Of a stretch of 64,000 bases of DNA, positions 45,479 through 56,940 are shown piece by piece. The stretch spans positions 1,674,001 through 1,738,000 of the forward strand of contig NZ_CP036150.1 in assembly GCF_008329965.1 (NCBI RefSeq). The letters run 5' to 3'. Under the pieces are notes generated by a model. The model was given only the letters and a program-made list of their open reading frames with translations, made no database searches and was not told the origin of the DNA. The translations under genes were made by a program, and so were the position numbers. Numbering within the stretch: the stretch's first letter is position 1; every line of letters starts with the position of its first letter. The stretch comes from Oceanispirochaeta crateris. GTDB taxonomy: Bacteria > Spirochaetota > Spirochaetia > DSM-2461.

Positions 45479-47086
45479 TCAGTAATCTTTCCTAAAAACT
45501 CTATAGTCGAGGAAGGGAAAAATATTGTCTTTTTTCTCCAATTTGGTCAGCCATTCGGTCTTTATTGTATTTCTGGACAACGAGTCATATATGAAGTTGA
45601 AATTATGAATATGTTCTTTGATTCGTTTTCTGGCGTAGGGGACGGTGGTTCCGGCTTTCATGATAAAAGGCCAGTCTGAAGCCTGGGATAACAGCACTTC
45701 TCTCGCAGCCTGATTCAAGGTCCTCTCTTTTAGCCCCTTCTCATCGGGAAAGCGATTCACCAGTTCCTGCATCCGCTCAATCAATTTATGAGTATGTCTG
45801 TAGATCCAGTCATTGTTTCCATCCAGCCAGACCTGACCATAACCCTTATCTCCCCAGCTTGAAAATGCAGGTTTTGTCACCTGATTCTGAGGATAGACTT
45901 TCAAATAATCCGTGGGAGTAACAAGAACAACATCATCAGATTTCTCGTGGATTTTCCGGATCAGTGCCTCTAGAAAAAGAGGTCCCTCAAACCACCAATG
46001 GCCAAACAGTTCCGCATCATAGGGACAGGGAATAATAGGGGTTCTATCCATGTACTGACTCAGGGCTTCACACTGCCTGATCCTGTTATCTAGGAAGTGG
46101 TCAGCATGCTCTTTAGCCTTGACGGCAGCCGCCTCCGGATCGTAAATGAGCTTATTATCTGATTTGTCGGTTATGGCAAAATACTTAAGCCCCGTATTCA
46201 CACGGTTAACACCGCAGTTGATGTATGGAGCTATATAATCCAGAGGCCTGTCAAAACCCAGGTCTCTGTAAAAATCACGATATACGGGATCTCCAGGATA
46301 ACCATCCGTGGCAGACCATACGGCTCTTGATGAGGCTCTGTCTCTGGCAAAGGCATGAACACCATTGGGACAGCGGATAGGAGCAAAAAGCCCATTTACC
46401 GGCCTGTCCTCGGAATAGAGGAGCCCATGAGCCGAAGACATAAAATACTGAATTCCATAGGGCTTGATGAACTCTTCAACCCCCGGAAAATACCCGCACT
46501 CGGGCAGCCAGAGCCCCTTGGGCTGGGTTGAAAAGACGCGATCATGGGACTCAATACCGGTCAGAATCTGTGCTCTGATCATTTCAGGATAATTCTGATA
46601 ATGAGGAAGGAAGCTGTGGGTGGCACAGGTGGTAATGATTTCCAAATACCCCCGATCCTGATAATACTTAAGCTTTTTGAGGATGTTTCGTTCATAAACT
46701 TCCTCGTATTCCTTGAGATTCAGAGAATACAGCTCATGGTACATCTGTGCCATTCTATGTTCTTCTGGATTTCCGGCTGTATAAATCAGTTCTTTCTCTG
46801 CAAGCTCTATCAGCATATTCAGATGATTAACATAGCGCTGGCGCAAAAGATCATCCTGCAGCATATGGGTAAGGGTCGGTGACAATGAAATTGTCAGTCT
46901 GAAGGGGATTTCATCCTCATCTAGCCTGGAAAACATCCTGAGCAGGGGTAGATAGGTTTCTGACAGGGCTTCAAACAACCAGGCCTCTTCAAGAAACCGT
47001 TCATGCTCCGGATGTCTCACAAAGGGGAGATGAGCATGCAGGACAAGAGAAATCATGCCTTTTTTATTTTTCAGATGCTCAATCAT
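45479..47086 (-). CDS. GH57 1,4-alpha-glucan branching enzyme (DUF1957 type)
   Basis: 535 residues. GH57 features: LVLHAHLPFVRHPE at the N-terminus, catalytic nucleophile Glu196 in GLWLPECGY and acid/base Asp357 in CPYDAELFGHWWFEGPLF, followed by a helical C-terminal domain. Matches the branching-enzyme branch of the family, which forms alpha-1,6 branches in glycogen. Start chosen at 47086 because GAGGA lies 8 bases upstream; an earlier ATG at 47113 has no such site. It overlaps the DUF4912 gene by 8 bases, implying a linked function. Confidence 0.92.
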   Translation of the reverse strand: MIEHLKNKKGMISLVLHAHLPFVRHPEHERFLEEAWLFEALSETYLPLLRMFSRLDEDEIPFRLTISLSPTLTHMLQDDLLRQRYVNHLNMLIELAEKELIYTAGNPEEHRMAQMYHELYSLNLKEYEEVYERNILKKLKYYQDRGYLEIITTCATHSFLPHYQNYPEMIRAQILTGIESHDRVFSTQPKGLWLPECGYFPGVEEFIKPYGIQYFMSSAHGLLYSEDRPVNGLFAPIRCPNGVHAFARDRASSRAVWSATDGYPGDPVYRDFYRDLGFDRPLDYIAPYINCGVNRVNTGLKYFAITDKSDNKLIYDPEAAAVKAKEHADHFLDNRIRQCEALSQYMDRTPIIPCPYDAELFGHWWFEGPLFLEALIRKIHEKSDDVVLVTPTDYLKVYPQNQVTKPAFSSWGDKGYGQVWLDGNNDWIYRHTHKLIERMQELVNRFPDEKGLKERTLNQAAREVLLSQASDWPFIMKAGTTVPYARKRIKEHIHNFNFIYDSLSRNTIKTEWLTKLEKKDNIFPFLDYRVFRKDY

Positions 47087-47828
47087 TGAATTGTTCCTCG
47101 TCCAGCAGATCATGGATAGGTATGATCCTCTGGGGTATTTCCTGATATCCCGAAACGCCGTGGGCTTCGCCGAATTCCGAAGAGAACCCGGACATCCGGA
47201 TCAGTTCGTCGCTATGGGTTATATCATTTTCTCGGGGAGCTGTTACATACTCCCTTGTCGTTTCAATTGAATTGGAGCGGGTTATCAGATAATCTTTATC
47301 TTCCACCACGGCCCGGATTTCTACACAGTAACAGGTGTCTACCGATGGTAGATTGATATACCGCCTGTAATCGTTGAATTTGATGGGGATATCAAAATAA
47401 TCCAGAACGTTATCCTGTGAATACTCTTTTGTATTCAACTCAACCACCCGGAGAAGAAGCCCCTGGAATCCGGGAGAATTCTGGATTTCATCGACTTTTT
47501 TATCTTCAAGATCCCAGTAGCAAAAGACCCAGGAAGGATCCCGGAGCAACAGAGTGGCACTTGTATCGTTGTACCGGAGAGGAAGCTCGAGGTCATCATC
47601 CTGCCCCAGATCCAGCTCTTCATCCCTGGAAACTGAGAACTTGCGGGCTTCCATCTGGATAGCCAGATTATTCAGTTCTTCTCTCTCATCTCGGTCTTCT
47701 TCAAAGGCGTCCATCAGCAGGCTGATAAGAGTCTCCTTATCCACACCGGGAGTCACAAATATATTTCCCCGGTTTGAGATTTCTAGAAGCTGTTCATAGG
47801 AAAAAGAAAAAAGACGTTCTTCTGTCAT
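47079..47828 (-). CDS. DUF4912-domain protein paired with the branching enzyme
   Basis: 249 residues, soluble. N-terminal helical part (YEQLLEISNRGNIFVTPGVD, resembling a Rho-N/SAP fold), an acidic linker, then a DUF4912 domain (LLLRDPSWVFCYWDLEDKKV, CYCVEIRAVV), a beta-sandwich thought to resemble carbohydrate-binding or GH-associated modules. Translational overlap with the GH57 gene suggests a glycan-binding or regulatory partner; that is inference. Confidence 0.82.
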   Translation of the reverse strand: MTEERLFSFSYEQLLEISNRGNIFVTPGVDKETLISLLMDAFEEDRDEREELNNLAIQMEARKFSVSRDEELDLGQDDDLELPLRYNDTSATLLLRDPSWVFCYWDLEDKKVDEIQNSPGFQGLLLRVVELNTKEYSQDNVLDYFDIPIKFNDYRRYINLPSVDTCYCVEIRAVVEDKDYLITRSNSIETTREYVTAPRENDITHSDELIRMSGFSSEFGEAHGVSGYQEIPQRIIPIHDLLDEEQFND

Positions 47829-47988: not shown

Positions 47989-50331
47989 ATGAGAAACCTG
48001 ATCATTCACGGCCATTTTTACCAGCCTCCCAGAGAAAACCCATGGACCGGGATTATAGAAGATCAAAAAGAATCGGCGCCATATCCCAACTGGAATTCAA
48101 GGATCAACAGTGAATGCTACGAGGCCAATGCCTTTTCACCACTCTTAAATGCAAAGGGAAACATAGAAAGTTTTTTCAATAATTATAGATATATATCCTA
48201 CAACATAGGTCCGACCCTACTGAATTGGCTTCAGGAAGAATCTCCCCATGTCTATGAAAAAATCATAGAAGGAGACAAGCTCAGCATTGAAGATTTGGGC
48301 TTTGGCAATGCCATTGCCCAGGTATACAACCACATGATCCTTCCTCTGGCAAATGAACACGATCGAAGAACACAAATACTGTGGGGACTCGAGAACTTCA
48401 AGTCTCATTATGGTAGAGATTCTGAAGGATTGTGGCTCTCTGAAGCGGCAATCAATAAGGAAACAGCCGAAGATCTAGTCAAGGCGGGAGTAAAATACAC
48501 CATCCTGTCTCCCTGGCAGGCCCAGCGATTCAGATTCGAGGCGTCGGGATGGGAGGATGCGACTGGAGACTCTCAGCAGCTCTGGCAGCACCCTTGGCGT
48601 CTGAACTGTCCCTCGGGTGATCTTACAATTTTCTTCTACCATCCCCATCTTTCATCAGAGATCTCATTCAACCATCTTTTAAGAGATGCTGATTACTTCT
48701 ACAACCGGGTTACGAAAGAGTTGGATAACTCGGGAGCCACCATCCTCCCCATCGCCACCGACGGAGAAATCTACGGTCATCATGAACTCCTGGGCAATAT
48801 GGGTTTATCTGCCTTTTTGAGTAAAGTACAGAGATCCCAGGACTCCCGGCTTGTTAATTTTTCATGGCTCAATTCAAATGCCAGCCCCGCCGGACAGGTT
48901 GAGCTGAAAGACGGAGAGGACGGCCGGGGAAGCTCATGGAGCTGCTCACATGGCGTATCCAGATGGTACAAAGACTGTGGCTGCTCTACGGGAGGCCAGG
49001 AAGAATGGAATCAAGCCTGGAGAGGCCCCTTAAGAGAGGCATTGAGAGATCTACAGGCGTCATCCGACAGAATATACAAAGCGGCTATGCCACGCCTCTC
49101 CTCCAGCTCAGCTCAGGAAATAAGAGATCAATATGTACACGTCCTCACCAAGCGCATTCCCAAGGGTGATTTTTTCAGGCGATACTGCCCGTCAAGATCC
49201 TCTGAATCGGATCAGCAGCAGTTTTTCAGACTCCTGGAGGGGCAGAAGTTCAGCATGCTCATGTTCACCTCATGCGCCTGGTTTTTTTCGGATATATCCG
49301 GTGTTGAGCCTCTTCAGAACCTGATGTATGCGGCCCGCTTGATAGACCTTTATTCTCCCTTCTACTCCAATAGCCCCGAATCGGCATTCTTAGAAAAACT
49401 GTCCATGGCTCATAGCAATATTCCCGAAAAGGGAAATGGCGCCGTCCTTTATACCATGTCAAAATATCTTCGAAAAAAAGAAATAAACCAGAGTGCTCTC
49501 TCCTTTATCATCATGAACTACTATGGAATCAAGGAAGACACTCCCGGATTTCTGAGAGGAGAGATTGAACCAGAAAAAAATGAAGATCTACAAAGCCGAA
49601 AGTCGGGAATCCTAACCCTAACCCACCCCCTCACGGGTGAAAAGAATAGGATTCCCTATTTTCTCGAGGGAGAAGAACGACTTTTTTCATCCATAACACT
49701 CTATCCGGGAGATCAGAATTCGATCTATACACCCGAAGACATCAGCAGGAGAGACAAAGAGTCTCTTATGAAACAGTTATGCCTGATGGAGCTTGGAAAT
49801 CATCTAAGCATCAGCAAGAAATACAGCGGAATCATCAACCAGCTGGATGAATGGATGAAGCTCAGGCTTCCCGACGGAGAGAATTTAAAACATTCCATAA
49901 AGGCCCTGCTCCATTATGCATTCAGGGAGGTTACCTTCCTGATGGAAAGCGGGAATGCCGAAGGTTGGAATTGTTTTCTCGACCTCCAGGAGAAGAATAA
50001 GATTTGGAAGATACCGCTTCCTGAAGACTTGAATCTATGGCTAAACCGGATTATTGACCGAAAGCTTCTCCACAAGGATCAGATTCTCAATGCCCTGAAG
50101 TCGGATATTAACAGCATACTGAACCAGCTTATCATACTCCTTGAAGTGCAGCAGATCAGCAGCCGGATGACCCTCAGCTCATCCCTCTCTGGAAGGATTT
50201 TCGACCTTGTCATTCACAATAAAGAGGGCCAGATTCTCCTTGAAAAAGCAGACGGACAGATCAAGAAGAAGCTATTGAATCTCCTGAATCTCACAGAGGA
50301 TATTCAACTATCTCCATCTGAGGGCTTCTGA
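47989..50331 (+). CDS. GH57-family protein with DUF3536
   Basis: 780 residues. Begins with the family signature HGHFYQPPRENPW, so the start is secure. Candidate catalytic residues: Glu in GLWLSEAAIN and Asp in IATDGEIYGHHE. The C-terminal half is the DUF3536 helical region. Substrate unknown, probably an alpha-glucan. There is no ribosome site; a TATAAT sequence (47980-47985) ends three bases before the ATG, so the transcript may be leaderless or start elsewhere. The 3' end overlaps the convergent methyltransferase gene by 28 bases. Confidence 0.88.
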   Translation: MRNLIIHGHFYQPPRENPWTGIIEDQKESAPYPNWNSRINSECYEANAFSPLLNAKGNIESFFNNYRYISYNIGPTLLNWLQEESPHVYEKIIEGDKLSIEDLGFGNAIAQVYNHMILPLANEHDRRTQILWGLENFKSHYGRDSEGLWLSEAAINKETAEDLVKAGVKYTILSPWQAQRFRFEASGWEDATGDSQQLWQHPWRLNCPSGDLTIFFYHPHLSSEISFNHLLRDADYFYNRVTKELDNSGATILPIATDGEIYGHHELLGNMGLSAFLSKVQRSQDSRLVNFSWLNSNASPAGQVELKDGEDGRGSSWSCSHGVSRWYKDCGCSTGGQEEWNQAWRGPLREALRDLQASSDRIYKAAMPRLSSSSAQEIRDQYVHVLTKRIPKGDFFRRYCPSRSSESDQQQFFRLLEGQKFSMLMFTSCAWFFSDISGVEPLQNLMYAARLIDLYSPFYSNSPESAFLEKLSMAHSNIPEKGNGAVLYTMSKYLRKKEINQSALSFIIMNYYGIKEDTPGFLRGEIEPEKNEDLQSRKSGILTLTHPLTGEKNRIPYFLEGEERLFSSITLYPGDQNSIYTPEDISRRDKESLMKQLCLMELGNHLSISKKYSGIINQLDEWMKLRLPDGENLKHSIKALLHYAFREVTFLMESGNAEGWNCFLDLQEKNKIWKIPLPEDLNLWLNRIIDRKLLHKDQILNALKSDINSILNQLIILLEVQQISSRMTLSSSLSGRIFDLVIHNKEGQILLEKADGQIKKKLLNLLNLTEDIQLSPSEGF

Positions 50332-51167
50332 AGAACCATCATCATCACATCCCCCCATCCCAGAGGCTTAACCAGTTTATCGGCTGCTTTTTTGAGGAAT
50401 GCAGGGGCATATCCTTCACCCAGGCCTCCCCAGGTTTTTGTTTTGAGAACCCGAAATCCCTGGGATTCAGCACTGAGCCGGAGGGTTTTCTTAGAGAAGA
50501 GGCAGAGATGGTCGGCGATAGCAGATCGCCATTTATGAGCAAAAAGTTTGGCCTGAAACCCTGAACAATTAGGGGTAGCACAGTAGTAAAGGCCTCCCGG
50601 CTTCAGAATACGGAAGATTTCATTCAAAAACAAATCGGGCCGGTTCACATGTTCAATAACATGCGAAGAATGAACGAAACGAAAGTGCTCATCGGGAAAA
50701 CAGGCTTCATTCAGAGTCCCCGGGAAAATTTCAATATTATAATGCTTATTTCCATAGGCGGCCGCCTCTCTGCAGACTTCCACTCCTTGAGCATTCCATC
50801 CGGAATCATTTAAAAAAGCTCCCAACCGCCCTGTAGCACAGCCTATATCCAGAAAGCTCTTATCCTCAGAGTCGAGGCTATCCCATTCTGAAAATCCTAC
50901 ATCATGGAGTCCCATAAGCATAAGGTTTAAAAAGCCGTCTTCATTCTCGGTCTCATATTCAAAATACTCAGAATCGTAGCGTTCCAATATATCCTCAATA
51001 ACAGGCTGGGGGTTTTGAAGGATGAGGGAGCAGGACAGGCAGCGATGCCAGATTCCCTGATCGGCCTTCCAGTGGATTTTGAATTGACTGCCGCCGCAGC
51101 AGGGACAATCAATCATGACCCTTGATTCTCCAATATCTGGAGTTTTTGAAAATGTTTTATAACTCAC
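50304..51167 (-). CDS. Zinc-ribbon class I SAM methyltransferase
   Basis: 287 residues. An N-terminal four-Cys zinc ribbon (CPCCGG and CLSC) precedes a class I methyltransferase: SFLDIGCATGRLGAFL (SAM loop), VHSSHVIEHVNRPDLF and IFRILKPGGLYYCATPNC. This architecture is common among methyltransferases acting on sugars, lipids or small molecules in surface-glycan loci; the substrate is not predictable. GTG start overlapping the previous stop (GTGA). Third gene of a coupled trio. Confidence 0.85.
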   Translation of the reverse strand: MSYKTFSKTPDIGESRVMIDCPCCGGSQFKIHWKADQGIWHRCLSCSLILQNPQPVIEDILERYDSEYFEYETENEDGFLNLMLMGLHDVGFSEWDSLDSEDKSFLDIGCATGRLGAFLNDSGWNAQGVEVCREAAAYGNKHYNIEIFPGTLNEACFPDEHFRFVHSSHVIEHVNRPDLFLNEIFRILKPGGLYYCATPNCSGFQAKLFAHKWRSAIADHLCLFSKKTLRLSAESQGFRVLKTKTWGGLGEGYAPAFLKKAADKLVKPLGWGDVMMMVLQKPSDGDS

Positions 51168-52009
51168 CGTATCACCTGTATTGTGTATTCGGTACTATCC
51201 TCATTGCCCTGGGCATCACTCATGACAACTTCCAATTTAGCCTGTCCTGAAGTCAGGGAGATGTCCCCGAGAAATAGGTATCCCTGTCTAAAAAACACCG
51301 AAGAGACGGCCACACCATCTTGAAAATACAAATCATTATCCTTCTGTATCACCGCATCTAAAACTCTTTTAAGCTGTAGTGTTCCCAGATTATACATGGA
51401 AAATTCGTAGGGCGACCGATTCCTGCCGGCTTCGTGTATATCCCAGCCTTTGATATACACCTGATAGCGTCCCACGGGAAGAATCAGATCATTATTTAAA
51501 ATATACTCTCTCTCTTGATCTGATAAAATGACAGATTCAATCACAGGGGGATAGAAATCATCCATCCCCGGAAGGAGTATAAGAGGGTTGACTAACTGGT
51601 TCTGAAGAGCATCCCTGATGTAAAAAGAAGAATGTCCTTCCCGGGGACCGTCTTCTGGAGATTTCAAATATTCGCCCTCAGACAACCTAGTTCGATCGGC
51701 TCTGGTCTCTTCTTCACTGATGTGAGTATAAATGGACTGAAACCCATTTTCATGCTCTAAGACAAGCATGGAACCCTCAACAGGAGGAAGAGCCGAGTAA
51801 TCTCCCGGAGTAAATCGAAAGATTGTCTCTCCAAAATCAAAGGGTCTCATAGAGTCATACCCAGAAAAAATAAGACCAGGAAAGGGTTCTCCATTGTAAT
51901 CTTCAAGAAAACAGGATTCCAGGTATTCTACAGAAACCGGCCATTGAAGGGCTGAAATCTGAGAGCAAAGGATCAACAGGATGAGTTGAAGAATTCTTTT
52001 ATTTGTCAT
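51164..52009 (-). CDS. Secreted degenerate M23-like (LytM-type) protein
   Basis: 281 residues. Signal peptide (about 1-20). Residues 75-147 follow the M23 fold: SMLVLEHENGFQSIYTHIS matches the usual HGNGYxTxYxHL, and GHSSFYIRD then NPLILLP matches the HLHFEIR and NPLxLL end. The second His of the HxH zinc site is Ser128, and the first HxxxD site is not recognisable in YDSMRPFDFGE, so it is probably not a peptidase. Inactive LytM proteins often act as amidase activators. Coupled by 4-base overlaps on both sides. Confidence 0.72.
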   Translation of the reverse strand: MTNKRILQLILLILCSQISALQWPVSVEYLESCFLEDYNGEPFPGLIFSGYDSMRPFDFGETIFRFTPGDYSALPPVEGSMLVLEHENGFQSIYTHISEEETRADRTRLSEGEYLKSPEDGPREGHSSFYIRDALQNQLVNPLILLPGMDDFYPPVIESVILSDQEREYILNNDLILPVGRYQVYIKGWDIHEAGRNRSPYEFSMYNLGTLQLKRVLDAVIQKDNDLYFQDGVAVSSVFFRQGYLFLGDISLTSGQAKLEVVMSDAQGNEDSTEYTIQVIR

Positions 52010-53073
52010 GAATCGACCCTTTTTAAACTGATTAGATCATCATTCATCGATAGAAATATATCCCGTCCCGATCTAAAAAAGAAGGGAGGATACTCATCAA
52101 AACGATTCCTCATGATTAAGGTTCCTGTCATTGTGTAGACAGCAACTTCATAGGACTTATCACTGAAACTGGATGGACCCAGACGGTTGAGAACATAGAC
52201 CAGCCCCGCCTGCTCATCGCTATTTTGAGTTAGCAGGGTTCCATCCAAGAGCAGAGTAGACTCAAGATCTGCTCCACGGTATTGAAGAAGGGACGACTCT
52301 TGCTCCACCCATAAAAGAGAAGCGGATTCTGAATAAAAGAGTTTCACAGGTCTGGAAAAACGGCTTTCCAGCAACTCTTCATGAAAAAGTTCAGGAGCCT
52401 CATCCTCTTTCAGATGATACTGTCTGATATACTGCTTGTTCAAACCCGATAGAACAGCCAGTTTGCTGCAATCCTGTGAAAAGGCAATCCCATAAATGAC
52501 ATTATCTTCACGTTGATCTCCAGGTATAAATTCAGTCATTTCTCCCTGTCTCGAAAAAATTCTGATACGTCCATCAACAGATCCGAAAACAGTGCAGAGA
52601 GTGCTGGCACTGATGGCGGTTATGGGAGACGTACCTCTCCATTTCCAGAGGCTTTTTCCAGAAGAATCAAACTCTTCCAGGATAGCGGAACCAAAGTCGG
52701 CAGCATAGAAATGACCGGAGAGGATAAGAGGATAATCCTGGGATGGAATGATTTTTTCACTTTGACTCTCAAGATCTTTCAAGATAAGAGAAGCAGATGT
52801 TGATTGTATTAAAAAATGGGATTCTGATACGGCAGCACGCTCTTCTTCATTCAAAAGATAGGGTGTTCCTCCATCCGGGAGTAATACGCCCCGGTGCCGC
52901 CCCTGATTGATTACCAGCGGGACACTCAAAGAATCTGGAGAATGATTCATTGTGCCAAAATGATGAAGCTCAGAAGCGGTCCAATAGATCTCTTTACCAC
53001 CCTTAACAGGAAACATAAGGTAGTAGATGAGGAAAAAGAGAATAATCAGGGGAAGAAAAAATGTTTTATTCAT
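52006..53073 (-). CDS. Membrane-anchored propeller-like protein
   Basis: 355 residues. One N-terminal membrane helix (about 5-22) with the rest extracytoplasmic. The body alternates short beta-strands with patterns such as SLWKWRGTSPITAISASTLC and FGSVDGRIRIFSRQGEM, NVIYGIAFSQDCSKLAVLSG, suggesting a WD40/PQQ-like beta-propeller. First gene of the trio with the degenerate M23 protein and the methyltransferase. Function unknown. Confidence 0.7.
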   Translation of the reverse strand: MNKTFFLPLIILFFLIYYLMFPVKGGKEIYWTASELHHFGTMNHSPDSLSVPLVINQGRHRGVLLPDGGTPYLLNEEERAAVSESHFLIQSTSASLILKDLESQSEKIIPSQDYPLILSGHFYAADFGSAILEEFDSSGKSLWKWRGTSPITAISASTLCTVFGSVDGRIRIFSRQGEMTEFIPGDQREDNVIYGIAFSQDCSKLAVLSGLNKQYIRQYHLKEDEAPELFHEELLESRFSRPVKLFYSESASLLWVEQESSLLQYRGADLESTLLLDGTLLTQNSDEQAGLVYVLNRLGPSSFSDKSYEVAVYTMTGTLIMRNRFDEYPPFFFRSGRDIFLSMNDDLISLKRVDS

Positions 53074-53577: not shown

Positions 53578-54402
53578 TTATTTTGATAGTCGTTTGAGGC
53601 GGGCAGCATTCTCTGACTGCTTTGCATCACTTTCCATTTTCTGTTTCCAGATATCAATTTTCTTTTTTAATTCCTCAATTTCCCGTTTCTGATTTGTCAG
53701 CATCAGAAAACGTTTTAATGCCGACAAATAATTGATGGCTGTTTTAAAGTCATCCATCCTGTTGGTCGACAGCTCATACTTCATCCTAAAGTTGTCTGCC
53801 GCATTCTGAAGAAGCTTGCAGGTCAGACGGAAGTGTTCCAACCGATCCCGGAATCCCTCGGAGCGGGGGTCCATACCGGGAACGAATTTCTTCAAGTCTA
53901 TCAGATTCTTTGAAAGTGTGGCCAAGCGACCTTCCAACTCTATAATAGACCATTTCCATTTGGAATTTTCACCGAATCCATCCTTGACCATCTGGATAGA
54001 AAACCCGAGTTTTCGGATGAGGGCGTACCTATTGAGTTCTGGATAATCCTGTACCATTTCAATTTTAGATGCATAGTCTGAATAGGGAACATCAATGTAA
54101 TCCGAAAAGACATCTTCCAAATAGATAACAATTTTATATGAGATTTTACGGGCATCATTCAAATAGTTTTCATTTTTAATGCCAAGGAGGTCCAGTGAAA
54201 GCTGATTCATGAGTAGATAGTTAGAGAGAATAGACAAATTTGCTTCGGCTAGCTCCAGTTTATGATAGGCACCGCTATCCTGGGCATTATCAATCAGAAT
54301 TTGTATCTTCTGTTCCTGAGTCAGAGTCGTTTCATTTTGAGTCTTATACTCTTTGATCTTCTCAAAATATCTGGTACGCGCTTCTTCACTGACTTTAGCC
54401 AT
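53578..54402 (-). CDS. All-helical protein of unknown function next to recN
   Basis: 274 residues, soluble and almost entirely alpha-helical, with a basic coiled coil at the C-terminus (about 225-274, FLMLTNQKREIEELKKKI). No catalytic motif, signal peptide or membrane helix. Follows recN by 11 bases, so it is cotranscribed with the recN-NAD kinase pair. I do not recognise a named family. Confidence 0.75.
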   Translation of the reverse strand: MAKVSEEARTRYFEKIKEYKTQNETTLTQEQKIQILIDNAQDSGAYHKLELAEANLSILSNYLLMNQLSLDLLGIKNENYLNDARKISYKIVIYLEDVFSDYIDVPYSDYASKIEMVQDYPELNRYALIRKLGFSIQMVKDGFGENSKWKWSIIELEGRLATLSKNLIDLKKFVPGMDPRSEGFRDRLEHFRLTCKLLQNAADNFRMKYELSTNRMDDFKTAINYLSALKRFLMLTNQKREIEELKKKIDIWKQKMESDAKQSENAARLKRLSK

Positions 54403-54413
54403 TCAATTTCCCT

Positions 54414-56096
54414 TCAACTTGATGCACTTCTCAGCAATTCCTCAGCATGGGTGAGTGATGCTTCCCCCTGACTGTCTCCAGACAGCATACGGGCAACTTC
54501 GGACACACGATCTTGGCCTGTAAGCGCAAATAGATCGGTAAGAGTCCTATTTTCCCGTTCTGATTTTTTTACCTTTATATGATTATCGGCATAAACGGCT
54601 ATTGACGCAAGATGAGTTATACACAATATCTGATGAAACCCGGCCAGCTTCTTCATATGCCGTCCTATTGAGGGAGCGACTTCTCCACCAATCCCGGAGT
54701 CAATTTCATCAAAGACGAGGATGGGTATTTGATCTGTTCCGGCTAAAGCGGTTTTGATTGCCAGCATGATCCTGGAAATTTCTCCTCCCGAAGCAACATC
54801 TTTTAAGGCCTTCAGGGGTTCTCCCTTATTCGCTGAGAAGAGAAACTCAACGCGGTCCAATCCATTCAAACCACACAGGGCCTGGCCTTTCTCTCCCGAT
54901 TTCTGAGTGATATCCACAGAGAAATGAGCAGAGGGCATACCCAGAGGGACCAGAATCTTGCTCACCATTTCCTCCAGCTCAGCTCCGGCATTCTTTCTTT
55001 CATTTGAAAGTACCTTAGCCTGGCTGATCAGTTCATCCTCCAATGCGGTTCGCTCAACCTTTAAGGCATTCAAGCGGTCGCTGCTGTTATCCAGATCTTC
55101 CAGCTTCTGGCGACATTCCTTCAAATACTCTTCTATCTCGCTCACTGTAGATCCATATTTCCTGCTCAATCTGCGTAGAAGGGCCAGGCGATCTTCAAGA
55201 GTCTCCTTCTCGCCGGGAGAAAACGATAGTTCGTCATTCAGCGATGAGATTGAATCTGCAATGTCCTCCAGCTCATAAAAAGCACTGGAGAATCGCTCCT
55301 TTAAAGGGATCTGGCCTTCATCAATTCTGCTTAATTTTTCCATGAGGTCCAAAGCTTTCCTCAGGGTCATAAGAGTGCCGCCCCGATTCTCAGGGAGTAT
55401 ATTAAGAAGAGAATCAACGATGGTATATAATTCCTGTGCTTGCCCCATCCTTTTCAAAGTTCCCCGGATCTCTTCTTCTTCACCCTCTTTCAACTGAGCG
55501 TCTTCTATCTCTTTCACAGAAAAGCTGAGGATTTCAATCTCCTTATCACGGTCTTCTAAAGCTGATACCATTTGGGAGATCTGCTCTGTTTTCTCTTTCA
55601 ACCTGTTGAACAGTGACTGGACGGTCCGATTCCTGTCCTCCAGTTTACCGCTCTGATCCAGAAGCTTGCGATGCTGTTCTATATAAAAAAGAGACTGATG
55701 ATCATGTTGCCCATGGATATCCACCAGCATTTTTCCAAGTTCATTCAAATCGGGTAAAGTAAAAGGCCTGGACTGTATATAGACCGCTCCCCGTCCGGAG
55801 GATCTGATTTTTCGTCTCAATATGAGAGTATCCTCATCAGGATCTAGATCATGTTTAGACAACCATTGGCGTACGTCGGGATTCTCAATTCGAAATACCG
55901 CCGTGACCTCGGCTTCATCACATCCCGTCCTGACATAGGAATTTTCTGTCTTATTACCCAAAACGAGTCCCATGGCACCAATAAGGACGGACTTTCCCGC
56001 ACCGGTTTCTCCTGTGAGAATATTGAGACCGGAATCAAACTGAATATGGACTTCGTCAATGAGGGCAAAGTTTTTTATATGAAGCTCTTCAATCAT
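54414..56096 (-). CDS. recN: RecN, DNA double-strand break repair ATPase
   Basis: 560 residues, SMC-like: Walker A GETGAGKS (29-36), long coiled-coil arms, ABC-type signature DVASGGEISRIMLAIK and Walker B ILVFDEIDSGIGGEVAP. Overlaps the NAD kinase gene by 8 bases. No SOS box was recognised nearby. Confidence 0.97.
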   Translation of the reverse strand: MIEELHIKNFALIDEVHIQFDSGLNILTGETGAGKSVLIGAMGLVLGNKTENSYVRTGCDEAEVTAVFRIENPDVRQWLSKHDLDPDEDTLILRRKIRSSGRGAVYIQSRPFTLPDLNELGKMLVDIHGQHDHQSLFYIEQHRKLLDQSGKLEDRNRTVQSLFNRLKEKTEQISQMVSALEDRDKEIEILSFSVKEIEDAQLKEGEEEEIRGTLKRMGQAQELYTIVDSLLNILPENRGGTLMTLRKALDLMEKLSRIDEGQIPLKERFSSAFYELEDIADSISSLNDELSFSPGEKETLEDRLALLRRLSRKYGSTVSEIEEYLKECRQKLEDLDNSSDRLNALKVERTALEDELISQAKVLSNERKNAGAELEEMVSKILVPLGMPSAHFSVDITQKSGEKGQALCGLNGLDRVEFLFSANKGEPLKALKDVASGGEISRIMLAIKTALAGTDQIPILVFDEIDSGIGGEVAPSIGRHMKKLAGFHQILCITHLASIAVYADNHIKVKKSERENRTLTDLFALTGQDRVSEVARMLSGDSQGEASLTHAEELLRSASS

Positions 56097-56940
56097 GAGG
56101 ACCTCCCTTCCAGTCCAGCTTTTTACGAACCACCTCGTAAAAATTCATTTTCTTAAAACTAAGAAGATCTGCAGAACAGTTATGCTTCCTGGTGATGACT
56201 TCGTCTCCCGGAAGCAGGGGTATAACATCCTGACCATCCAAAGTTAAAATAAGATTTGTCCTTTGCTGTTTGCTCACCAGAATAGTAACTTCTTCATCAG
56301 CGGGAATCACCAGGGGTCTGTTAGAAAGGGTAAAAGGATTAATGGGATTAACAATCATGGATGAGAGTTCCGGATGAACAATGGGGCCACCGGCCGCCAT
56401 GGAATAAGCAGTAGATCCCGTGGATGTGGCCAAAATGATTCCATCGGCTCTGTACTCGATGACTTCCTGATTGGAAATATTCACCTTTAGATTCACAATT
56501 TTAGCCATACCGGTTGAGGTGATCACACAGTCATTGAGACAACAAAAGGAGGCGATATCTTTACCATCCCGCCTTAAGACTGTATTGAGCATGATGCGGT
56601 GACTGATTCCCATCGTTCCATTCTGATAGGACTCAAAGGCCTGTTCCCATTCATCGGGGTTCACTTCTGCCAGAAAACCAAAAGTCCCCAGGTTCACAGC
56701 TAGAATCGGCATGTTCATACCGACACAGAGGCGGGCACTGTACAAGACAGTCCCATCTCCTCCCAAAACAATGGCGAGATCGGACTTTTTAATTTCATAT
56801 TTTCCTGGATTGCCACTAAATGAGTGCTCATGAATTTGCACTCCCCTATCTATAAGATAGGTTCTAATTTGATCACGAAGCACAGCTGCTCGGTCTTTGG
56901 AGAGGTTCGTTATAATGAGGGCACTTTTAACAGCAGCCAT
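56089..56940 (-). CDS. nadK: NAD kinase
   Basis: 283 residues. GGDGT at 60-64 and the second signature (YRADGIILATSTGSTAYSMA, GGPIVHP). Phosphorylates NAD to NADP. The nadK-recN pairing is widespread in bacteria. A 45-base gap separates it from the DegT-like gene. Confidence 0.96.
   Translation of the reverse strand: MAAVKSALIITNLSKDRAAVLRDQIRTYLIDRGVQIHEHSFSGNPGKYEIKKSDLAIVLGGDGTVLYSARLCVGMNMPILAVNLGTFGFLAEVNPDEWEQAFESYQNGTMGISHRIMLNTVLRRDGKDIASFCCLNDCVITSTGMAKIVNLKVNISNQEVIEYRADGIILATSTGSTAYSMAAGGPIVHPELSSMIVNPINPFTLSNRPLVIPADEEVTILVSKQQRTNLILTLDGQDVIPLLPGDEVITRKHNCSADLLSFKKMNFYEVVRKKLDWKGGPHD

Follow-up and report, generated by a model that had tools for sequence, protein, structure and literature searches.

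Degenerate LytM factors are already known as a kind, and such proteins are described in part of PMC9662197 as usually acting through protein contacts. Here we describe a family of this kind from Oceanispirochaeta crateris, found in a window (the whole stretch of 64,000 nucleotides analysed, G000:C1:1674001-1738000, from a host genome that is a single contig of 4.01 Mb) where three minus-strand open reading frames (ORFs) spanning 50304-53073 encode, in order, an anchored eight-bladed beta-propeller (WD), a degenerate LytM protein (pseudo-M23) and a zinc-ribbon class I S-adenosylmethionine (SAM) methyltransferase (MT). Compared to EnvC, NlpD, ActS and DipM, pseudo-M23 shares the LytM fold without zinc ligands and a genome that holds the cognate amidase type, but it carries a C-terminal Ig-like domain rather than an N-terminal coiled coil or LysM, is coupled to an anchored propeller, and has outgroup family members that keep their active sites. 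The Csd1-Csd2 system of another helical bacterium, Helicobacter pylori, likewise includes an M23 protein that is dead, BamB (YfgL) shares its eight-bladed periplasmic propeller fold with WD, and other zinc-ribbon class I methyltransferases (Methyltransf_23) share the CxxC...CxxC ribbon and SAM-binding domain of MT, which differs from them in being coupled to envelope genes. What is new is this family, the way it is coupled to an anchored propeller and linked to division clusters, and a visible passage from enzyme to pseudoenzyme within one gene order. We lean, if not strongly, towards interpreting WD and pseudo-M23 as a two-gene wall module of Spirochaetota, in which an anchored scaffold and a non-catalytic LytM factor would control a wall hydrolase or synthase.

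Evaluating the gene layout, we found that WD (52006..53073, 355 aa, ATG start) and pseudo-M23 (51164..52009, 281 aa, ATG) overlap by the four bases ATGA (52006..52009), and that pseudo-M23 and MT (50304..51167, 287 aa, GTG) overlap by the four bases GTGA (51164..51167), all on the minus strand and as had been claimed from the letters of the window (hereafter the sequence-only reading). That reading had also called the first product an anchored propeller-like protein and the third a zinc-ribbon methyltransferase, and both descriptions held. WD was identified from its ORF, its model, Foldseek and VIA matches and hydropathy, and its model (51 alignment rows, pLDDT 92.9) places a hydrophobic N-terminal helix at residues 3-20 ahead of an eight-bladed propeller at about residues 28-355. 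MT matches Pfam Methyltransf_23 (E 4.2e-24, 85.6 bits against a cut-off of 27), and its N-terminal CxxC/CxxC cysteines (C21, C24, C43, C46) are unchanged across all 21 rows, while among the 25 of 31 NCBIfam matches listed for MT no family reached its cut-off. Along the WD alignments we also observed a strongly conserved motif, PGGSR...YG.ALS.DG..IA.ISGLDPQRF, which is a candidate binding face.

The predicted structure of the second envelope protein was equally confident (pLDDT 93.6, AlphaFold2 on 81 alignment rows), with a signal-like N-terminal helix (residues 2-16), a LytM fold (about 18-148) and an Ig/FN3-like sandwich (about 148-281). Residues 18-148 matched StM23 (9gy1; Z 14.4, rmsd 3.8 over 125), EnvC (4bh5; Z 13.7, rmsd 2.7 over 118) and DipM (7qrl; Z 13.6, rmsd 3.1 over 122), with Csd1-Csd2 also among the structural matches, and these place the protein in the LytM/M23 fold; residues 151-281 resembled Ig/FN3-like sandwiches (9kvu; Z 9.2, rmsd 2.4 over 91). 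By profile, the window protein stays below the Pfam gathering score for M23 (12.7 against 28.7 bits), and PF01551 is matched at E<=0.01 by 65 of the 81 family members. Outside the LytM and Ig-like folds the model has just the signal helix and short helices, and we found in it no Csd2-type helical dimerisation domain around LytM and, in model and Pfam scans alike, no N-terminal coiled coil of the EnvC type or LysM of the NlpD and ActS type.

We assessed the zinc site at five alignment columns (His, Asp, His, His, His), the same columns that are given as active-site residues of MepM in part of PMC8360153. The window protein has F, I, H, H and S there and so keeps two of the five, with neither the H-x3-D and H-x-H zinc site in its sequence nor intact metal-binding residues in its model. 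The full set was present in 40/40 loci outside class Spirochaetia and in 0/43 rows inside it, the latter comprising the window, 22 family and 20 class rows and leaving out the Borrelia-like, f11 and f14 proteins, which are more diverged (f1 to f50 denote family groups, f1 being that of the window; G and L codes denote genomes and loci). The sequence-only reading had the M23 scaffold kept and the zinc ligands lost, which these counts and the model bear out. Its detail that HLHF had become HSSF was right as to ligand loss, though the His left in HSSF is not conserved in place, as the nearest relative (67% identical) has CHFY there, and the H-x3-D motif has gone too. Named records, which were not assigned to classes, added 46 MT-linked homologues (58 alignable, less 12 repeat loci already counted), in which the active site was complete in 10 and incomplete in 36, five of the latter keeping three of the five residues; a count by motif alone gave 10 active forms, and the alignment check returned the same 10.

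In an 83-row tree, the pseudo rows formed one side of a branch with support of 98/96 that was present in all 200 bootstrap trees. A quick 141-row tree needs three changes to explain its 91 loss rows, with starred branches forcing only one and long branches making the number uncertain, and a single clean loss of the active site, our reading until the named loci were added, was softened accordingly. Judging by these sequences, the pseudo-enzyme arose in place from an active-site-intact ancestor, perhaps in a single event and perhaps in as many as three. Selection shows among close relatives: the ratio of nonsynonymous to synonymous substitution rates (dN/dS, by NG86) of the M23-like gene was 0.09-0.14 in the four of ten pairs with finite dS (a rough ratio given dS of 2.5-4.4), the nearest pair had proportions of nonsynonymous and synonymous differences (pN, pS) of 0.20 and 0.72, and none of the 23 family matches carried an internal stop. 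This shows that pseudo-M23 is under purifying selection.

To summarize conservation within the window's own family, an M23-like protein was recognised in 23 of 26 genomes; in two of the misses (G001, G022) an M23-like ORF begins after WD and is then truncated where the contig stops, and in the third (G025) we recognised neither WD nor pseudo-M23. Read from stop to stop, the WD and M23 frames touch or overlap, WD first, in 21/22 family loci (L045 has no WD match), an order too regular to be chance, and MT follows directly in 21/22 (L037 stops at a contig end). Across the phylum, 220/247 genomes match the M23-like protein at E<=1e-5, a figure that is not a count of orthologues because its weak end includes ordinary M23 proteins. 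From the better matches we hand-picked 60 loci, one or a few per family, and later added 12 regions, mostly from weak-match genomes; as these loci were selected for having an M23 protein, they cannot measure how frequently it is absent. In the 27 further class loci (L076-L095, L212-L218), profiles found an immediately upstream WD in the same orientation in 24 and a downstream MT in 11. WD adjoins M23 on the opposite strand in L081, while L214 missed one partner at the profile cut-off yet has a WD homologue 69% identical to that of L212, and L217 (f7) has 3' of WD a 243-aa protein that we took as an M23 remnant, its profile score not being significant. In all, the pair was seen in f1-f6, f8, f9, f11, f13 and f14; its presence in f7 is doubtful, and neither the single f10 genome nor any of the five f12 genomes showed it. 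Outside the class, WD lay upstream in 11/40 loci and MT downstream in 2/40 (L108, L117). WD itself had one match each in 56/60 genomes (34 at at least 150 bits, 22 at 50-112 bits).

The sequence-only reading had taken all three genes as a unit. Profile searches found the grouping conserved in relatives, and what stands is the WD-M23 pair, with MT an optional member. A search for related loci from a single protein sequence found no relative, and one from the MT alignment did. Among the 60 genomes, MT scored at least 280 bits in all those sampled from f2, f4, f6, f8 and f13 and in part of the outside families, with matches of 140-180 bits in other genomes outside the class, and at E<=1e-40 there was none in nine f3 (Treponema-like) genomes or one f9 genome. 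Beside the pair, MT had no match in the nine f3 loci sampled, and on this ground we rejected it as an obligate partner; some metagenome-assembled genomes named Treponema nonetheless carry the full trio (L283, L292, L295, L300-L303). The 80 named MT loci comprised 56 with WD-M23-MT, seven with M23-MT, 12 without M23 and five with less than 2.5 kb upstream; being found by MT similarity they lean toward the trio, and removing 12 repeats, all with the trio, leaves 44/68.

We next consider where the pair sits. Three Borrelia-like loci share the order NadK-RecN-(258-267 aa)-WD-M23-RsmH-FtsL-MurF-MraY-FtsW-FtsQ-FtsA, with no RecN match in L213; gene names come from Pfam on L212 and, for the other two, from homology to L212, and the FtsL match is a weak one that, at 17.4 bits, falls short of its cut-off. 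At the f14 locus the order is RecN-274aa homologue-WD-M23-MraZ-RsmH-Mur-ligase protein-MraY. At the f11 locus it is NadK-RecN-274aa homologue-WD-M23-MT-DUF4912-GH57, and a homologue of RsmH lies 3.4 kb past MT. The pair is linked to division and wall clusters in some families, and because it heads the division gene cluster in some groups, it is probably part of how spirochaetes build or split their wall. Outside the class, the active relative lies directly 3' of a cluster of large proteins in 14/40 loci, and the two of these 14 that were scanned both held class A penicillin-binding proteins (PBPs).

Building on predicted fold, gene coupling, ligand loss, intact relatives in the same order, purifying selection and division-cluster linkage, we propose the following for the wall module. 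The LytM protein of the pair would have had an intact M23 active site in its ancestor, and the zinc site would have been lost in the lineage of class Spirochaetia with the gene staying beside WD. An inner-membrane-anchored WD may hold or position the secreted pseudo-M23 in the periplasm, where its dead groove may bind a wall hydrolase or synthase and so control that partner in septal or elongation growth, with MT presumably a cytoplasmic passenger co-transcribed where present. Several observations weigh against this proposal. Family-invariant residues of pseudo-M23 look structural and we saw no conserved replacement groove; the window pair itself stands outside the division cluster, near DUF4912 and GH57 as in f2, f6, f7 and f11; orthology is unsure for the 22/56 weak WD matches; and the pair can be absent where wall and flagella are kept. 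Profiles recovered neither WD nor M23 from one f10 genome (G210) in which FliG and three transpeptidases are present, and WD had no match in seven FliG-bearing genomes from outside the class (G028, G030, G043, G062, G077, G091, G098).

Genomes without the pair bear on a bolder version of this proposal. In 5/5 f12 genomes WD had no match and M23 matches were weak and numbered 0-1 each, FliG was absent (it was present in the other 71 of the 76 genomes tested), and transpeptidases numbered 0-1 against 3-5 in 14 other genomes tested. This pattern fits, by analogy, the spherical spirochaetes Sphaerochaeta and Bullifex, for which PBPs 1a, 2 and C, rodA and mreC are reported absent in part of PMC7738495. 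A portion of PMC12236494 describes two families that non-spiral spirochaetes lack, one a DUF2225 family and the other undeletable; neither could be tied to WD or M23 from that portion. We tentatively entertain, as an idea that is rather doubtful, a phylum-wide wall machine in which a peptidoglycan endopeptidase turned, beside the same propeller, into a non-enzymatic part of the divisome or elongasome that would be needed for a helical, flagella-bearing sacculus and would have been lost with the flagella and most transpeptidases in one lineage. The f12 co-loss cannot separate a link to the wall from a link to flagella, and flagella as a general explanation for presence of the pair were rejected, as many of the 71/76 genomes with FliG have no pair.

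The alternative that survives best, possible though on the unlikely side, is an EnvC-like amidase activator, whose LytM groove would bind an Amidase_3 helix and lift autoinhibition, the anchoring role of FtsEX being taken by WD. The structural matches to EnvC and DipM speak for it, as do the amidases themselves: Amidase_3 occurs in 34/37 sampled class genomes (the three without are f12), and of the two Amidase_3 proteins in the host genome one aligns over the domain in one stretch with AmiA and AmiB, unlike CwlV-type structures, whose alignment is split in two by a gap where the insertion lies. By alignment, this amidase carries an AmiA-like regulatory insertion resembling an interaction helix. 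Seventeen amidases were aligned, one of the host genome's two and 16 from the 30 loci fetched (of the remaining loci, 11 yielded no ORF and three a wrong one), and at AmiA interaction-helix positions taken from part of PMC10268282, columns 189 and 192 are hydrophobic in 17/17 and 185 and 188 mostly so. An amidase with such an insertion and such hydrophobic positions leads one to expect a LytM activator in the genome. Against this, column 184 is polar or charged in 17/17, three of the amidases, including two Borrelia-like ones, have Glu in column 188, and pseudo-M23 lacks the coiled coil or LysM part. The groove positions of EnvC (324, 350, 353, 401) have equivalents that vary widely among pseudo-M23 rows. 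In addition, a separate LysM-LysM-degenerate-LytM protein without H-x3-D or H-x-H (L177 3256-4143, minus strand, at about 1.534 Mb of G000:C1) looks, from its sequence, more like NlpD than the trio's protein does, and it may be the activator. The likeness to amidase-activating LytM proteins drawn in the sequence-only reading is plausible rather than established: it holds for the fold and for the type of amidase present, while the groove positions vary and the role may fall to the other protein. With that competing protein and an unconserved groove in the trio's own, we prefer the broader interpretation, a membrane-anchored, non-catalytic wall regulator.

We regard as unlikely a Csd2-like arrangement, in which the dead LytM protein would heterodimerise with an active M23 enzyme to shape the helical wall. 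The host genome encodes six further M23 proteins in which both H-x3-D and H-x-H are present and which could supply such an enzyme, and Csd2, found with Csd1 among the structural matches, itself has incomplete ligands and pairs with Csd1 according to part of PMC5053510. However, that pairing runs through helical domains of a kind missing from the pseudo-M23 model, and no gene for an active M23 partner stands alongside in the operon.

Improbable as well is a role in outer-membrane or envelope assembly, where WD would act like BamB and pseudo-M23 would be its periplasmic binding partner with no part in wall hydrolysis. BamB (4imm) is the first Foldseek match of WD (TM 0.62), there are profile matches to BamB, and the Foldseek and VIA matches together include BamB and eight-bladed designs. 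By gene order, BB0308 is presumably the Borrelia WD. BB0308 is a predicted outer-membrane candidate in part of PMC4939628. On the other side, many eukaryotic WD40 propellers match WD equally well, so that the fold says little about function. WD has the eight-bladed propeller but not the lipoprotein signal of BamB, being held instead by an N-terminal anchor, with no lipobox in the window protein and a lipobox-like sequence in 1/51 rows; it is, moreover, coupled to a LytM protein, and the context in f5 and f14 is that of division and wall synthesis.

It is very unlikely, in our view, that the locus is an operon for a surface polymer or glycan in which MT does the enzymatic work and the pair is accessory. 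In favour of such an operon are the coupling of MT to the pair in most named MT loci and the DUF4912 and GH57 genes downstream in f1, f2, f6, f7 and f11. The pair, however, persists without MT in nine f3 loci, neither GH57 nor DUF4912 turned up in the f5 or f14 loci, and MT occurs without M23 in f22 and f50, beside FapA in 5/14 and PASTA in 4/14 of the loci fetched there. Functionless drift of a decaying pseudoenzyme, to which the lost active-site residues and low M23-like identity across the class might point, is scarcely credible and already largely contradicted by dN/dS well below 1 among close relatives, the lack of internal stops and the presence of the pair in most class families sampled.

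Returning to the wall regulator that we prefer, the placement of wall growth and division in spirochaetes is poorly known, and the pair represents two conserved proteins that also occur in genomes resembling relatives of the Lyme and syphilis agents, with the Borrelia-like gene order tying it to division and wall synthesis. It also lets the evolution of a pseudoenzyme in place be traced through intact, half-lost and dead forms that share one gene order. Literature searches found nothing on Borrelia BB0307, and searches on LytM, M23, EnvC and the division cluster in spirochaetes, Borrelia and Treponema gave no title describing the pair. In Treponema pallidum TP0781/TP0782 are, again by gene order, presumably the pair. 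These two are listed as fused genes in part of PMC3265458, and part of PMC4403809 puts the label Peptidase M23 on accession B2S421, which a second table there ties to TPASS_0782, such that the syphilis homologue of pseudo-M23 may already be labelled M23.

Around the trio, the window reads NadK-RecN-274aa-(Cdd)-WD-M23-MT followed by DUF4912 and GH57. Upstream on the minus strand lie NAD kinase (56089..56940), RecN (54414..56096), whose synteny is common to two Borrelia-like loci, f7, f11 and f14, and, between RecN and the pair, a conserved 274-aa protein without a Pfam match (53578..54402) with homologues in the Borrelia-like, f7, f11 and f14 loci. Judged by its place next to recN, this protein is probably TP0443 of T. 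pallidum, which is listed with DNA-metabolism partners in part of PMC2386257. Downstream, also on the minus strand, are a DUF4912 protein (47079..47828) and a GH57 branching-enzyme-like protein (45479..47113); the same two genes stand 3' of the pair not only in f2 and f6 but also in f7 and f11, and the link, first set aside as local, may be a wider one. The f11 locus (L215 5066-12000) joins this window-type neighbourhood with the division cluster. Elsewhere in the host genome (L176), an M23 gene that retains its motifs is found close to a gene for a class A PBP, and a PHP-domain gene adjoins it. In five f22 and f50 loci (L145, L146, L148, L151, L153) FapA is 3' of MT, and in four of the five a PASTA-domain gene is 5' of it. 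In the window, a convergent GH57/DUF3536 gene overlaps the 3' end of MT by 28 bases (50304-50331).

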